Of a DNA stretch of 64,000 nucleotides, positions 37,137 through 43,940 are shown piece after piece. Both the position numbers and the translations under genes were made by a program. The stretch lies in NCBI RefSeq assembly GCF_000327485.1, contig NC_019943.1, forward strand, positions 1,240,001-1,304,000. Direction: 5' to 3'. The stretch is from Methanoregula formicica SMSP. Its GTDB lineage: Archaea > Halobacteriota > Methanomicrobia > Methanomicrobiales > Methanospirillaceae. How positions within the stretch are numbered: the stretch's first letter is position 1; every line of letters begins with the position of its first letter. The notes beneath the pieces are model-generated. The model searched no databases. It saw only the letters and a program-made list of their open reading frames with translations, and was not told the DNA's origin.

Positions 37137-38612
37137 TCACGATTTTTTCTGCTGGATGTACGTGTTGACCGCTGCAGTGATTGCGGCCACTTTTTTGCCC
37201 TGATCAAAGGATCCCGCCAGTGTCTGCATGCGCGTCTCTTCATCCCGCTTGTACCGTTCAAGGGTTTTTAAAATGTGCTCTTCCTGCAGGAAGTGCGTGT
37301 GCGTGTTTCCATCGATGAACTGCTGGTTGTTCATGATCGCGTAATGGAGCGGGAGGGTTGTCTTGATCCCAAGCACGATATACTCTGAAATCGCCCGGCG
37401 CATCCTCTGGATTGCATCGTGACGGGTACTGTCCCATGCACAGAGTTTTGCGATCATGGAGTCGTAGTTTGGCGGGATGGTGTATCCCATGTGGATGCCG
37501 GAATCAACCCGGATGCCTGGGCCGCCCGGGGAGCGGTACCGCAGGATCTTTCCCGGATCAGCCGCAAAATTATTGAGCGGATCTTCGGCATTGATCCGGC
37601 ATTCTATCGCATGTCCGCGGATAGAGAGGTCCTTCTGCTCAAATTGAAGGGATTCACCCGCGGCAATGGCGATCTGCTGCTTAACGAGATCGATGCCCGT
37701 GATGAACTCCGTGATGGTGTGTTCGACCTGGAGCCGGGTGTTCATCTCCATGAAATAATAGTTACCCTGGCTGTAGAGGAACTCCACAGAGCCGGCATTG
37801 GTGTAATCGGAGGCTTCGGCTACCTTGAGGGCTGAGGCGGACATCCGCTCCCTGAGTTCGTCCGTCATGATGGGAGACGGTGCTTCTTCGATGAGCTTCT
37901 GGTGTCTACGCTGGATTGAACATTCACGGTCATAGAGATGGACAGCGTTTTTATGCTCATCTACGAGCACCTGGAACTCGATATGCCGGGGCTTGATAAG
38001 GTACTTCTCGACGAAGACCGTTGCATCTCCAAAAGCCGACTTTGCGATCCGCTGGCTGCCGGAGATTGCTTCTTCCAGTGACTTCTCGTCATGGACGATC
38101 TGCATGCCAATACCGCCGCCTCCGGCGCTGGCCTTGACGATGACGGGATACCCGATATCAGCGGCAATCTTCTTTGCCTCCTCAATATCGGTGATACCCC
38201 CATCCGTCCCGGGAAGGACGGGAACACCGGCATCTTTCATCATCTGCTTGCTGCCGATTTTTGAGCCCATCGCTTTGATGCTCTTCCACCGCGGGCCGAC
38301 AAATGTGACCCCCTCATCCTGACAGAGTTTGGCAAACCGGTAGTTTTCGGCAAGAAAACCGTACCCCGGGTGGACGGCCTCGGCACCGCACTTCTTCGCG
38401 ATGTCGATGATCCGTTCCATGTTGAGATAACTCTTGGAGGGGTGGGCTTCGCCGACATAGAACGCTTCGTCAGCATATCTTACGTGGAGCGCGTTCTTAT
38501 CGGCATCCGAGTAGATCGCCACCGTGTCAATGTCCAGCTCGCGGCATGCACGCATCACGCGGATGGCGATCTCGCCACGGTTGGCGATCAGGAGTTTCTC
38601 GAAAAATTTCAT
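37137..38612 (-). CDS. pycA: Pyruvate carboxylase subunit A (biotin carboxylase)
   Basis: 491 residues. The ATP-grasp fold has GEIAIRVMRACRELD (about residues 14-28), GYGFLAENYRFA near 82, a glycine-rich loop VKASAGGGGIGM near 160 and EMNTRLQVEHTITE near 290 (metal/ATP and catalytic Arg). It carboxylates biotin using bicarbonate and ATP. Partner of the PycB gene directly upstream (four-base overlap, 38609-38612). Together they make oxaloacetate for the reductive TCA branch typical of methanogens. Confidence 0.93.
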   Translation of the reverse strand: MKFFEKLLIANRGEIAIRVMRACRELDIDTVAIYSDADKNALHVRYADEAFYVGEAHPSKSYLNMERIIDIAKKCGAEAVHPGYGFLAENYRFAKLCQDEGVTFVGPRWKSIKAMGSKIGSKQMMKDAGVPVLPGTDGGITDIEEAKKIAADIGYPVIVKASAGGGGIGMQIVHDEKSLEEAISGSQRIAKSAFGDATVFVEKYLIKPRHIEFQVLVDEHKNAVHLYDRECSIQRRHQKLIEEAPSPIMTDELRERMSASALKVAEASDYTNAGSVEFLYSQGNYYFMEMNTRLQVEHTITEFITGIDLVKQQIAIAAGESLQFEQKDLSIRGHAIECRINAEDPLNNFAADPGKILRYRSPGGPGIRVDSGIHMGYTIPPNYDSMIAKLCAWDSTRHDAIQRMRRAISEYIVLGIKTTLPLHYAIMNNQQFIDGNTHTHFLQEEHILKTLERYKRDEETRMQTLAGSFDQGKKVAAITAAVNTYIQQKKS

Positions 38613-40351
38613 TGGACCACCAGCAGGACATCGCCGTTCTGGACGACATCGCCGGCATCAACAAAGATCTCGGTGACCTTGCCGTCAACCGGGCTGTGGA
38701 TCGGGTTCTCCATCTTCATTGCTTCGAGAATTACCAGGGTGTCACCTTTCTTTACAGCCGAGCCCCTGCTGACGGGGACCTTGAGGACCATGCCCTGCAT
38801 GTTGCTCTTAATTCCTCCGGCAATGTCGCCACGGGGGATTTTCTGGGGGACGGCGCTCGCGACTTCAACCTTGTTCCCTCCGATAGAAACGATCCTGACA
38901 GTAAAGACTTCGCCGTCAACCTCGACCTCCATCTGGCTAGGGATATCGTCGGAGGGGGATGTGGGAGCAGATTGTTTCCGGGGAATCTCCTCGATGGTCC
39001 TTTCTCCCTTGAGAAACGACGGTGCTATGGCGGGATACAGGATATAGGTCAGGACATCCTCTTCCTTTTTGATAAGTCCTGCCCTGGTTGCCTCTGCTTT
39101 CATGCTGTCGTAGGATGGCTCAAGCAGGTCGGCCGGCCTCTGGGTGATAACCTTCTCGTCGCCGATGATCAACGTACGGATCTCGTCGCTGATTGATCCG
39201 GGAGATTTGCCGTACAGGCCGCGGACATAATCCTTGACTTCTTTTGTGACATTCCGGTAACGCTGGCCGTTGACCAGGACATTGAGGACTGCCTGCGTTC
39301 CGACAATCTGGCTCGTTGGGGTAACAAGCGGCGGGTAGCCCAGGTCTTCGCGTACGCGGGGTACTTCTGCCAGCACATCATCCCACCGGTCAAGAGCGTC
39401 CTGCTCCTTCAACTGGGAGACAATGTTCGAGATCATTCCTCCCGGTAACTGGTAGATGAGGACATCGCTGTCTACCCTCTCGGAAATCGGGTCAAGGAGT
39501 CCCTGGTATTTATCCCGGATCCTGAGGACCTGGTTCCTGACTGCCCTGAGTTTGATTAAGTCGATACCGGTGTCCCGCGATGTTCCCGTCAGCGATGCGA
39601 CAACACTTTCCGTGGGGGGCTGTGAAGTCCCCATGGCGATGGGGGACATCGCGGTGTCGAGAATGTCAACTCCTGCCGAAATTGCTGCCTGGTAACTCAT
39701 GGGAGCAATGCCGCTGGTGCAGTGGCTGTGGAGGCAGACCTTGACATCCACTGCTTTCTTGATCCCCGTGATGAGCTCCCGTGCCTGTTCCGGCATAATG
39801 AGGCCTGCCATGTCCTTGATGCAGATGGAGTCGCATTCAAGGGCATAGAGCTCTTTTGCCATATCGATGAATGACCGGGTACTATGGACCGGGCTTGTCG
39901 TGTAGGATATGGTGCTCTGCAGGTGGGCCCCATTATCCTTGACGCGTTTCATGGAGCGCGTCATGTTCCGGATATCGTTGAGCGCATCGAATATCCGGAA
40001 GATATCAACGCCGTTCTTGTGCGCCGCATCAACAAACTTATCGACGACATCGTCAGGATAGTGGCGGTACCCGACCAGGTTCTGGCCACGGAGGAGCATC
40101 TGAATCGGAGTGTGCTTGAGTTCAGATTTCAGTGCCCTCAACCGGTCCCAGGGATCGTCGTTAAGAAACCGGATACAGGTATCGAACGTGGCACCGCCCC
40201 AGGCTTCAACGGAGAAGAATCCGCAACTGTCGATTTCCCGGGCAAGCGGGAGCATATCTTCGGTCCTGAGCCGCGTGGCAATGAGCGACTGGTGTGCATC
40301 ACGGAGAGTCGTATCAGTGATCAGGACTTTTTTGGGAGAGGCAGGGTGCAT
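38609..40351 (-). CDS. pycB: Pyruvate carboxylase subunit B (carboxyltransferase plus biotin carrier)
   Basis: 580 residues. The N-terminal HMGL-like barrel starts DTTLRDAHQSL (residues 13-23), a PYC_OADA conserved domain follows, and the C-terminal biotinyl domain has EAMKMENP with the biotinylated Lys546. It moves carboxyl from biotin to pyruvate. It lies 49 bases after EcfT on the same strand; a TTTTATAC-like box in that gap may give it its own promoter, so it may be both read through from the biotin genes and independently expressed. Confidence 0.94.
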   Translation of the reverse strand: MHPASPKKVLITDTTLRDAHQSLIATRLRTEDMLPLAREIDSCGFFSVEAWGGATFDTCIRFLNDDPWDRLRALKSELKHTPIQMLLRGQNLVGYRHYPDDVVDKFVDAAHKNGVDIFRIFDALNDIRNMTRSMKRVKDNGAHLQSTISYTTSPVHSTRSFIDMAKELYALECDSICIKDMAGLIMPEQARELITGIKKAVDVKVCLHSHCTSGIAPMSYQAAISAGVDILDTAMSPIAMGTSQPPTESVVASLTGTSRDTGIDLIKLRAVRNQVLRIRDKYQGLLDPISERVDSDVLIYQLPGGMISNIVSQLKEQDALDRWDDVLAEVPRVREDLGYPPLVTPTSQIVGTQAVLNVLVNGQRYRNVTKEVKDYVRGLYGKSPGSISDEIRTLIIGDEKVITQRPADLLEPSYDSMKAEATRAGLIKKEEDVLTYILYPAIAPSFLKGERTIEEIPRKQSAPTSPSDDIPSQMEVEVDGEVFTVRIVSIGGNKVEVASAVPQKIPRGDIAGGIKSNMQGMVLKVPVSRGSAVKKGDTLVILEAMKMENPIHSPVDGKVTEIFVDAGDVVQNGDVLLVVQ

Positions 40352-40400: not shown

Positions 40401-41054
40401 TCATCGGTATAGTATAAAAAATTCACTAACGGGAATTACCGTTATGATGAGTATGCATAGTGCAGTCATGCATCGGAAAATATCTCCCCTCGTGGTGAGA
40501 AACCGCGGACAGAGTGAACCACCGCACCGGTATCCCCGCACCGCCATAAGCTCTGCAGTATGTTCGGCTCGTGAAAGGGCACCGGTGACAAGGACAAGCC
40601 CGGCCGGTACAAGCATTTTCCCGGCAGTGCCGGTTCCTTTCAGTGCCTGGGCAACGCGGATCGTTTCGAAGTCCCGGACCATGAGGTGCAGGGTTTGCAT
40701 TGCCATGTCGGCCAGCATTCCCAGTTCGAACCCGATCCGGTTCCCGAGCAGCCAGACTCCGAGATGAAGGAACTCTCCGCTTTTCTGTTCAGCATAGACC
40801 CATGAACCGACAAGGACAATGACCATCATCCTCAAAAAATACGAAACGCCATCACCTCCGGTCAGGGAGAGAACGGCGCTGAAGAACGCCAGCATCCCCG
40901 CGACAGGAAGGATCATACGCATCCGCATGATTTCAGAAACCTTGCCGGACCATGCGATCCACCAGAGAAATGCCAGGGCAGCTCCCGCCAAGCTGAAGAA
41001 CGCGGAAAGGGTGAGTACCAGCGCCGCGGCAATCCGGAGCCTTATGTCCTGCAT
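40401..41054 (-). CDS. ECF transporter transmembrane protein (EcfT/BioN-like)
   Basis: 217 residues from ATG 41052-41054 (a longer upstream frame overlaps the ATPase gene). Several membrane helices and the EcfT cytoplasmic signature AQALKGTG near residue 132 and AELMAVRGYRC near 169 couple to the ATPases. It forms the energising module with two ATPases for the BioY biotin permease. It overlaps the preceding ATPase by 13 bases. Confidence 0.84.
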   Translation of the reverse strand: MQDIRLRIAAALVLTLSAFFSLAGAALAFLWWIAWSGKVSEIMRMRMILPVAGMLAFFSAVLSLTGGDGVSYFLRMMVIVLVGSWVYAEQKSGEFLHLGVWLLGNRIGFELGMLADMAMQTLHLMVRDFETIRVAQALKGTGTAGKMLVPAGLVLVTGALSRAEHTAELMAVRGYRCGGSLCPRFLTTRGDIFRCMTALCILIITVIPVSEFFILYR

Positions 41055-41734
41055 GCTGCCTCCCGGATATCCTGTCTTGTGAGGTTTGCCGGTTCTTTCC
41101 CTCTTCTGATGAGTGCCCTGACGATCTCCGGAGCGTGCTCCCATGTGCGAAGAGCATCAGGAAGATTTCCCCTGCAGTGGAGCGAACCGTCAACAATCTC
41201 CCAGAGCATATCCACCCGCGGGAATTGCGACTGTTCGTGCGTGAAGATGATCGTGATCCCCCGTGCGCGGCCGGAGATTGTGGTGCAGGCCCGCGCCTTC
41301 TCCTTACAGTCCAGGGAGCTGAAGGGTTCATCCAGGACAAGAAGGTCGTACTCCTGTGACAGGACACAGGCCAGGTGCAGGCGTTTCAGTTCCCCCCGGC
41401 TGAGTCGCAGAGGAGAGAGGCCGGCCTTTTCCTGAAGTGAGGCCTGTTTGAGTATGACTGTGGGATCGAGCCCCCAGGAGGAACATTCCTCGCTGACGGT
41501 TGAGCCGGTGACATGGTGCTCCGGGAACTGGAACGAGATCATCGGGTGGGTGATGTCCTCCCTTCTGATCGCTCCCGAGGTGGGCGGAGAGAGTCCTGCA
41601 ATTACCCGCGCAAGTGTGGTTTTACCACTGCCAACATCACCACTGATCAGGTGGATACCCTCGGTGAATGTCCCGGTTGCAGAGACAGACCACGAATCCC
41701 GTACAACTCGTACCGCATCGAGATCGATCCTCAT
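41042..41734 (-). CDS. ECF transporter ATPase (EcfA, switch-His intact)
   Basis: About 230 residues from ATG 41734 (GTG 41743 is an alternative; ATG overlaps the upstream stop as ATGA). Walker A GDVGSGKT near residue 33-40, FQFPE Q-loop, LSRGE signature variant near 118, Walker B LLVLDEP near 138, and FTHEQ with the switch His. It hydrolyses ATP to drive biotin uptake. Its partner at 41731 lacks the switch His and the Q-loop Gln (see findings). Confidence 0.83.
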   Translation of the reverse strand: MRIDLDAVRVVRDSWSVSATGTFTEGIHLISGDVGSGKTTLARVIAGLSPPTSGAIRREDITHPMISFQFPEHHVTGSTVSEECSSWGLDPTVILKQASLQEKAGLSPLRLSRGELKRLHLACVLSQEYDLLVLDEPFSSLDCKEKARACTTISGRARGITIIFTHEQSQFPRVDMLWEIVDGSLHCRGNLPDALRTWEHAPEIVRALIRRGKEPANLTRQDIREAACRT

Positions 41735-42402
41735 ATCCCGCACTCCATGGTCAGGGGATAAAATGGTGTGCCATGGAGCCGGGCGAATACTTCCCCCGGT
41801 ACCCCCTCATAGGCGACCCGGCCATTCTCCAGATAGATAACATGATCGCTGCGGATTGCGGATTCAACCTGCTGGGTACACCGGATAACGTACGGGATCG
41901 CGCGTTCCTGGACAATGCGCTCGACCTGGCGGGCCCTATAGTTGTCAAGGTGCGAGTCACATTCGTCGAGCACAAGGACCCGGGGTGTGTGTACAAGTGC
42001 TGCAGCAAGTGCGACAAGGACCTTTTCCCCTCCAGATAGATCGCATACCGGCCGGCCTCTAAGGGGGGATATCCCCATAGAGTCCAGAAGCTTCTCAACC
42101 GTAATTTTCACGTCCCTGTCTGGCAGGTGGCGGAAACGCAGCGATGATGCGACTTCATCAATGACGGTGCCAAAAAGGATGTTGCGATCCGGGAACTCAT
42201 TGACCCAGCCGGTTTCAGTCTTTCGGGGAGGCACTCCATCGATACGCACAGTCCCGGAGTGTGGCAGGAAGATCCCGGCCAAGAGTTTGAGCAGCATCGT
42301 TTTCCCGCTGCCATTGGGTCCGATCACTGATGTGGTACCGAAAGGGATCCGGAGGGCGCTGATGTCAAGTATGGTATGGCGGATACCGGAAAGTTCAATC
42401 AT
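41731..42402 (-). CDS. ECF transporter ATPase (EcfA', degenerate switch loop)
   Basis: 223 residues. Walker A GPNGSGKT (residues 29-36), ABC signature DLSGGEKV near 125, Walker B VLVLDECDSHLD near 145. Two usual residues are different: the Q-loop Gln is replaced by Glu in VNEFPD, and the switch His is replaced in VIRCTQQVE (Gln). This suggests an asymmetric ATPase pair in which one site is degenerate. It overlaps BioY by four bases (42399-42402) and lies upstream of the other ATPase. Confidence 0.82.
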   Translation of the reverse strand: MIELSGIRHTILDISALRIPFGTTSVIGPNGSGKTMLLKLLAGIFLPHSGTVRIDGVPPRKTETGWVNEFPDRNILFGTVIDEVASSLRFRHLPDRDVKITVEKLLDSMGISPLRGRPVCDLSGGEKVLVALAAALVHTPRVLVLDECDSHLDNYRARQVERIVQERAIPYVIRCTQQVESAIRSDHVIYLENGRVAYEGVPGEVFARLHGTPFYPLTMECGI

Positions 42403-42908
42403 GGCAACCGCTCAGCGATGATGTAGACAGCACCTGCTTTCAGGATGCCGCCCGGAATAAAGGGGAGAACCCCTGCGATGAACGCGGGAATGAATTCCAT
42501 TCCGGCAGAGATCATCAGCCATGCCATGCCAAAGAGGAGTGTGACTGCGGTTCCCATTGCAAGGCCGGCAATGCGTACAGGGCGCGACGAGCTCTCGTAC
42601 GCAAGTCCGACGATGAGCGCAGAAACGAGGAACCCGACGAGATAGCCCCCGGTAGGTCCGAGGAGTACCCCCGGGCCGGACATCCCGTTGTGGAATACCG
42701 GAAGGCCGAGTGTGCCGAGAACAATGTACGCTGCTACCGGAAGTATGGCCCTCCGTTTCATGACGGCCCCGGCAAGCAGGACAAAGAGTGTCTGGAGCGT
42801 AAATGGGACCGGGATGCAGGGGATCGATATCCAGCTCCCCAGTGCAATGAGCCCGATAAAAACCGCGGAATGTGCTAATACCCGTGAACGTTCGAGATCG
42901 CCAAACAT
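42399..42908 (-). CDS. bioY: Biotin ECF transporter substrate-binding component BioY
   Basis: 169 residues from ATG 42908, chosen because AAGAGGT lies 6 bases before it; the open frame also has TTG at 42914. About six hydrophobic segments and the LGTLGLPVFHNGMSGPGVLLG motif near residue 67-87, followed by GPTGGYLVGF, are typical of BioY. It binds and brings in biotin with the three downstream ECF genes. The BirA-box-like inverted repeat at 42907-42941 overlaps the start codon. Confidence 0.92.
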   Translation of the reverse strand: MFGDLERSRVLAHSAVFIGLIALGSWISIPCIPVPFTLQTLFVLLAGAVMKRRAILPVAAYIVLGTLGLPVFHNGMSGPGVLLGPTGGYLVGFLVSALIVGLAYESSSRPVRIAGLAMGTAVTLLFGMAWLMISAGMEFIPAFIAGVLPFIPGGILKAGAVYIIAERLP

Positions 42909-42941
42909 CGTCAACCTCTTATGAAAATGATGGTTGACGAT
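42907..42941. promoter_or_regulatory. BirA-type biotin operator
   Basis: Perfect 10-base inverted repeat ATCGTCAACC (42907-42916) and GGTTGACGAT (42932-42941) with a 15-base spacer. The known BirA box (TTGTAAACC-N14/15-GGTTTACAA) has nearly the same arms and spacing. It covers the bioY start, so biotinylated-AMP-bound BirA should repress the downstream transport genes, possibly pycBA too. The HTH-bearing birA gene is directly upstream. Confidence 0.78.
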
Positions 42942-42956
42942 AAAAAAGTATTGGGA

Positions 42957-43940
42957 TTACTGGTGATAACAGTCGCCGGCTATGACCCGTTCGAGTTTGC
43001 CGTTGTCCTTCTTGATAATCAGGGCACCGAACTCATCGATATCCACGGCTTCGCCTTCGAAACTGTTCTTGAGGGTACGGATCTGGACACGGTTTTCGAG
43101 AGTGCATGAGATACTCTTCCATTCCTGGATGATTGTATCGTACTCCCCGCTTTCTATCAGGAGGAGGTGGCTCTCAAACTCTTTTAACAGCCGGGCGAGA
43201 AACGCCGCGCGGTCAACTTTATGCCCGACTTCCGCGCAGATAGAAGTGATCTGGTCGCGCAGGTCCGGAGCGAAATTGGTGACCGGGACATTCACATCAA
43301 TGCCGATAGAGAGAAGGCAGTGGTGCACAACATCGGACTCTGCCGAGAGTTCCAGGAGCAGCCCGGCAACTTTCTTGTTCCCGATGAAGATATCGTTAGG
43401 CCATTTGATGAGCGCCCCGAGGTTGAACTCTTTTCGGATTGCCCGGGCAACGGCAATGGATCCTGCCATGGTGACCATAAAGATATGATCGATGGGTATG
43501 CAGGGTTTTAGGACAATGGTGATCCAGATGCCGCCGCTGGGCGAGACCCATGCCCGGCCCATCCTGCCAACACCGCCCGTCTGTTCTTCTGCGATAATGA
43601 CGAGACCGTTCATCTTATCAACATCGCCTTCCGAGCAGAGTTGTTTTCCTACCCAGATGGTGGAAGGTGTGTTCTCAAAGTACCGCATCTTCTTCCCGAT
43701 GAACTGCGTACGGAGTTTCTTGTGGATCTCGTACGGGAGCAGTTTTGCGCTGGGCTGGGATAACCGGTACCCCTCCTTTTGTGACGAAGAAATATCGTAT
43801 CCCATCATCCGGAGCTCGTTGATGTGTTTCCAGACTGCTGAACGGGTAATTCCCAGTTCGTTGCTGATCGTCTCCCCGGAGAGGGCCCCTTCTGCCCGTT
43901 CAAGGATTTCCAGTACTTTGAATGCGGATTCCGGCAACAT
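42957..43940 (-). CDS. birA: Bifunctional biotin ligase/repressor BirA
   Basis: 327 residues from ATG 43938-43940 with a GAAGGTGAT ribosome site; the ORF extends further up. The N-terminal winged helix (SGETISNELGITRSAVWKHINEL) matches DNA-binding repressor BirA. The catalytic domain has GGVGRMGRAW (biotinyl-AMP motif), IKWPNDI and KKVAGLLLE, then a C-terminal SH3-like domain. It attaches biotin to PycB Lys546 and should bind the operator at 42907. One base separates it from the DUF2111 gene upstream. Confidence 0.93.
   Translation of the reverse strand: MLPESAFKVLEILERAEGALSGETISNELGITRSAVWKHINELRMMGYDISSSQKEGYRLSQPSAKLLPYEIHKKLRTQFIGKKMRYFENTPSTIWVGKQLCSEGDVDKMNGLVIIAEEQTGGVGRMGRAWVSPSGGIWITIVLKPCIPIDHIFMVTMAGSIAVARAIRKEFNLGALIKWPNDIFIGNKKVAGLLLELSAESDVVHHCLLSIGIDVNVPVTNFAPDLRDQITSICAEVGHKVDRAAFLARLLKEFESHLLLIESGEYDTIIQEWKSISCTLENRVQIRTLKNSFEGEAVDIDEFGALIIKKDNGKLERVIAGDCYHQ

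Follow-up and report, generated by a model that had tools for sequence, protein, structure and literature searches.

In the window, that is, the whole analysed stretch of 64,000 nucleotides of the Methanoregula formicica SMSP genome, an inverted repeat is located between birA and bioY, and all the genes around it lie on the minus strand in the order birA, bioY, two ABC ATPases, a membrane protein, pycB and pycA. The corresponding features, with their functions as predicted, are:

42957–43940, minus strand: birA, winged-HTH and biotin protein ligase (AGGTGAT stands before the ATG at 43940; the mechanical open reading frame reaches 43973)
42907–42941, no strand: predicted BirA operator (box), arms 42907–42916 and 42932–42941, spacer of 15 (exact match, conserved in relatives)
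42399–42908, minus strand: bioY, biotin-binding (S) component of an ECF transporter (Pfam BioY, E=5.5e-39; ATG within an operator arm)
41731–42402, minus strand: ECF-type ABC ATPase, bioM-like (Pfam ABC_tran; best NCBIfam match ECF_ATPase_1, below cut-off)
41042–41743, minus strand: second ABC ATPase of this cluster, the more divergent one (Pfam ABC_tran; weak ECF_ATPase_2)
40401–41144, minus strand: probable EcfT/bioN-like membrane component (by position in the bioY cluster; start unsure)
38609–40351, minus strand: pycB, pyruvate carboxylase subunit B with a biotin carrier domain (Pfam PYC_OADA, E=1.1e-56, and Biotin_lipoyl)
37137–38612, minus strand: pycA, biotin carboxylase subunit (Pfam Biotin_carb_N/C and CPSase_L_D2)

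The birA product combines a ligase domain with an N-terminal winged HTH, the architecture of group II biotin protein ligases (Pfam HTH_11, E=2.3e-15, BPL_LplA_LipB and BPL_C; TIGR00121 above cut-off), and matches the BirA proteins of S. aureus (6apw, E=2.1e-38) and E. coli (1bia, E=5.6e-24) over nearly the full length. The membrane protein at 40401–41144 gave no match in Pfam or NCBIfam; it contains AELMAVRGY, which we take to resemble the EcfT coupling motif, and this motif together with the gene position suggests a divergent EcfT (BioN) component. The pycB gene encodes a biotin-dependent enzyme for oxaloacetate and was found by similarity search in 228 of the 232 genomes of the order, some of these matches being only weak or partial. 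A T/A-rich stretch lies upstream of pycB, in part inside the preceding gene. In one relative (L029, G042:C10) bioY is part of a 322-aa open frame that is longer than the frames of the other relatives, a possible fusion or upstream extension.

The repeat, ATCGTCAACC-N15-GGTTGACGAT, is the operator candidate. An earlier note, made on the same DNA, had described it as a perfect 10-base inverted repeat with a 15-base spacer that covers the start of bioY downstream of a BirA with an HTH domain, and all of these points were confirmed: the repeat occupies exactly 42907–42941, it is the only one in the window, it was matched in none of 100 dinucleotide shuffles, and birA, with its HTH_11 and ligase domains, ends at 42957. 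The right, bioY-side arm overlaps both GAGGT, the Shine-Dalgarno sequence, and the beginning of the bioY ATG. Read on the coding strand, the box runs ...TTTTTTATCGTCAACC-ATCATTTTCATAAGA-GGTTGACGATG..., and its final ATG is the likely start of bioY; we place the start at this ATG (42908) and not at the TTG (42914) that opens the reading frame because the alignments of relatives begin at the ATG. A T-rich, TATA-like stretch directly adjoins the left arm on the coding strand, so that a repressor bound to the box would be expected to occupy the space from the TATA box to the start codon.

The published BirA consensus is TTGTAAACC-N14/15-GGTTTACAA, and the bacterial sites listed include arms of the TTGTcAACC type (PMC545781). 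Both the arms and the spacing of ATCGTCAACC-N15-GGTTGACGAT agree with this rule, as had been proposed earlier. Of the 232 genomes of the order, 128 contain an exact box and only 2 the reversed (backwards) control pattern. At bioY, the position of the box immediately before the gene, its arms and its 14/15-nt spacing are kept in almost every Methanoregula and also in a number of other families, the flanks having diverged and the spacer varying in sequence, with a length of 14 or 15. The operator thus precedes a biotin uptake gene and recurs in relatives, and a lack of conservation, which had been named as grounds for giving up the proposal, was looked for and not found at bioY. In most of the box loci that were read, birA is the neighbouring gene. 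The boxes among them that have intact GTCAACC/GGTTGAC arms with N14/15 lie at bioY or PEP carboxylase (PEPC), except in L280, where an N14 box lies beyond birA and bioY was not found within that stretch. The consensus match and the conservation support the prediction of a BirA operator, and the bioY site may be regarded as a well-supported putative addition to the BirA operators already known.

Several arrangements deviate from the common one. In some Methanoculleus relatives (L056:1501-1569, L142, L152 and L157) two BirA-type boxes stand 39–40 bp apart upstream of bioY, and this distance of about four helical turns suggests possible cooperative binding. Most genomes of one genus (G071–G094; family f6, genus g13) contain two BirA/BPL matches and no exact box; in the one genome of this genus that was read (G055), bioY is accompanied by a diverged palindrome, GTTCACC-N14-AGTTTAC (L090). 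Near or exact boxes elsewhere were considered as signs of further regulon members and judged to be due to chance, their spacers being mostly 12, 13, 16 or 17 bases long or their arms non-consensus, and their positions inside reading frames.

A search of the genome for more copies, recommended in the earlier note, led outside the window. The pattern GTCAACC-N13..17-GGTTGAC has only one other exact site in the 2.82 Mb genome, at C1:990483-990510 (L001:1501-1528), and its reversed control has none; a looser scan of the same genome with 3 mismatches gave 924 matches against 408 in the control, a noise too high for use. This second box, 292 kb from the first, is situated 58 bp before the start of a gene for archaeal-type PEPC (TIGR02751 at 609 bits, the cut-off being 146). 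PEPC needs no biotin. The spacer of the PEPC box, TCAAAAATAAATAT on the coding strand, is AT-rich and TATA-like, probably representing an archaeal core promoter, and is almost identical in six other Methanoregula species.

PEPC was found in 57 of the 232 genomes; most of the order lacks it, and the predicted switch is therefore an option of certain lineages. When 14 positions were scored with up to 2 mismatches, the box was found upstream of 34 of 56 PEPC genes, compared with 7 of 5600 shuffled upstream regions. It precedes PEPC in 7/7 cases in Methanoregula, in 13/13 in the family f2, which includes Methanogenium, and in 14/15 in f5, mainly Methanoculleus. Its beginning mostly lies at −43 to −92 relative to the gene start, two boxes being further out, and it is retained in strongly diverged PEPC promoters. 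Outside the order, no box with one mismatch or fewer was found at the PEPC genes read from bacteria and other archaea, with the exception of Archaeoglobaceae, which have a box type of their own.

The two boxes are kept or lost together. In 51 cases with both sites readable, 32 have both boxes, 19 have neither (Methanofollis, Methanospirillum and two others) and none is mixed. Of the PEPC genes without the box, 11 belong to Methanofollis and 9 to Methanospirillum; the others come from one further genus and from a single Methanoculleus (G125). In those genomes of the first two genera that were read, only 1–10 bases are left between birA and bioY, and the bioY box is gone. Lineages without boxes mostly also have an altered recognition helix of BirA: in the presence of boxes this helix reads [IV]TRSAVWK (ISQSAVWK in G039 and ISRSAVWK in G044), and in their absence IPRSTVSHH, LSKSAVWK or ISGSTVWK, or the HTH is missing altogether. 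Operators thus occur only alongside an intact BirA DNA-binding domain, within a small number of independent losses and with a near-normal helix (VTRSVVWK) in G125. This genome has PEPC without a box and, just past the birA stop, a box with one mismatch about 300 bases before bioY, which falls outside the 150-base span within which boxes were counted for the table of concordance. On the PEPC tree, only about 2–3 joint losses can be distinguished, and the 32/19 table therefore overstates the independent evidence; a test of independent pairs found 1–2 pairs only and is without statistical power. The correlated loss is strong in kind and small in number. The idea that genomes with a box-less PEPC are those devoid of pyruvate carboxylase was rejected, since pycB is nearly universal and the element missing there is the bioY box. 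In one further genome (L137, G165:C8:23824-25254) the PEPC matches occur in pieces in different frames, so that the gene looks broken, and the box is absent at both PEPC and bioY.

A similar arrangement was found in the Archaeoglobaceae, where boxes at the start of bioY are mostly of the type GTTAACC-N12/13-GGTTAAC. Three genomes of one genus have the exact GTTAACC-N12-GGTTAAC before PEPC, and a fourth genome, from another genus, has a PEPC box with one mismatch and a 12-base spacer. In three of the four, bioY boxes were read as well and likewise have a spacer of 12, compared with 13 in most other members of the family. The type and spacing of the PEPC box thus appear to track those of the bioY box, as a single DNA-binding protein would need. 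Most of the Archaeoglobaceae examined lack the PEPC box, and most have the bioY box. The Methanomicrobiales and the Archaeoglobaceae with boxed genes are placed apart on the PEPC tree, in which long branches advise caution, and the arrangement therefore probably arose more than once.

BirA ligase makes biotinyl-AMP and, when there is no unbiotinylated carrier protein to serve, forms a dimer on its operator and represses transcription. In these archaea the main biotin carrier is presumably PycB. With ample biotin and with PycB already biotinylated, the dimer of BirA with biotinyl-AMP would sit on the bioY box and keep bioY and the transporter genes that follow from being transcribed, and it would also occupy the second box over the PEPC promoter, so that PEPC would be switched off too. 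Scarcity of biotin, or recruitment of BirA as a ligase by unbiotinylated PycB, would open both promoters, and the cell would import biotin and make oxaloacetate by PEPC, replacing pyruvate carboxylase or working alongside it. The two boxes, the conservation of both and the correlation in their occurrence and loss are observed; from them we infer the binding of BirA, the sign of its effect and its metabolic purpose. In our opinion, it is quite likely that biotin-bound BirA represses bioY, the transporter genes and PEPC, that shortage of biotin relieves the repression, and that PEPC backs up pyruvate carboxylase. It is also likely, with slightly more reserve, that a biotin-sensing transcription factor directly controls PEPC in archaea and switches between the routes to oxaloacetate, and that this control arose at least twice, in the Methanomicrobiales and the Archaeoglobaceae.

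Among the other explanations, the one that survives best accepts BirA at bioY as usual and supposes that the PEPC box acts differently, BirA either activating PEPC or having little effect on it. The direction of control is unreadable from sequence, and the position of the PEPC box varies in the range given above; against this, the box in Methanoregula extends across what is probably the core promoter of PEPC, where repressors usually act, and the box is kept where the PEPC promoter has otherwise changed strongly. We consider such a different action doubtful.

It is also unlikely that another regulator binds the box and controls bioY and PEPC by some other signal, such as the carbon or nitrogen state, BirA being a mere neighbour. 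Control of PEPC by carbon or nitrogen would be plausible, and the binding of BirA is itself a deduction. However, the arms and their spacing are those of the published BirA consensus (PMC545781), birA adjoins most of the box loci read, loss of the boxes is accompanied by changes in BirA's own recognition helix, and the Archaeoglobaceae boxes at PEPC are of the type that occurs at bioY.

The least probable explanation, a very remote one, is that the repeat acts as an RNA hairpin masking the ribosome-binding site and start codon of bioY: the bioY leader does fold well (−18.6 kcal/mol, z −3.8), with the Shine-Dalgarno sequence and the beginning of the ATG inside an arm, but this reading was rejected, as it leaves the PEPC box unexplained, many one-sided changes in the arms break the pairing without compensation (e.g., GTAAACC versus GTCAACC), and the spacer is fixed at 14–15 bases (12–13 in Archaeoglobaceae), as for a protein dimer on DNA. 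Most PEPC boxes lie well before the gene start and in Methanoregula have a TATA-like spacer, so their left arm is probably untranscribed. A hairpin in read-through mRNA could add to the control.

The predicted BirA regulon resembles the biotin regulons of bacteria and archaea described by Rodionov, Mironov and Gelfand in 2002, as cited in PMC545781 and PMC3199775, in its bifunctional HTH-ligase BirA, its palindrome (GTNAACC-N14/15-GGTTNAC) and its target bioY. The known targets of BirA are genes of biotin synthesis and uptake, whereas the second target here is a biotin-independent enzyme of central metabolism. Some biotin-dependent carboxylases are reportedly among the BirA targets in the account of Rodionov, Mironov and Gelfand. 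The bioYMN genes of Corynebacterium glutamicum are regulated by the TetR-type BioQ and not by BirA. They are comparable with the genes considered here as ECF-type biotin transporter genes under biotin-dependent control (PMC3398298).

A closer parallel may be seen in the isozyme switches, in which a B12 riboswitch stands before the B12-independent NrdDG, NikR before [Fe] hydrogenase and Fur before flavodoxin (PMC545781). In these systems, as is predicted here, a cofactor sensor represses a cofactor-independent enzyme; the M. formicica genome also has the cofactor-dependent counterpart, pycB in the window, and putative BirA sites precede PEPC, the cofactor-independent one. The present case differs in its cofactor, biotin, and its sensor, BirA, and also in that the alternative enzyme catalyses a different reaction, the same product being formed from PEP and bicarbonate instead of pyruvate, bicarbonate and ATP.

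The novelty probably lies in the PEPC box, by which a biotin sensor would be connected with the choice between carboxylases of central metabolism; a literature search, which reached few subscription papers, found no earlier account of a link between BirA and PEPC. Autotrophic methanogens enter much of their biosynthesis through the synthesis of oxaloacetate, and the shared BirA box offers a testable answer to the question why some of them have both pyruvate carboxylase and PEPC, the latter being a possible biotin-free reserve. The BirA regulon would thereby reach beyond the supply of biotin into central carbon flow, and the few isozyme switches that respond to a cofactor would be joined by one for biotin. 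It may be predicted that the level of biotin in a digester or culture should determine which carboxylase is used by Methanoculleus. One Methanoculleus genome (G109; L212 and L123) contains two PEPC genes, each with one box.
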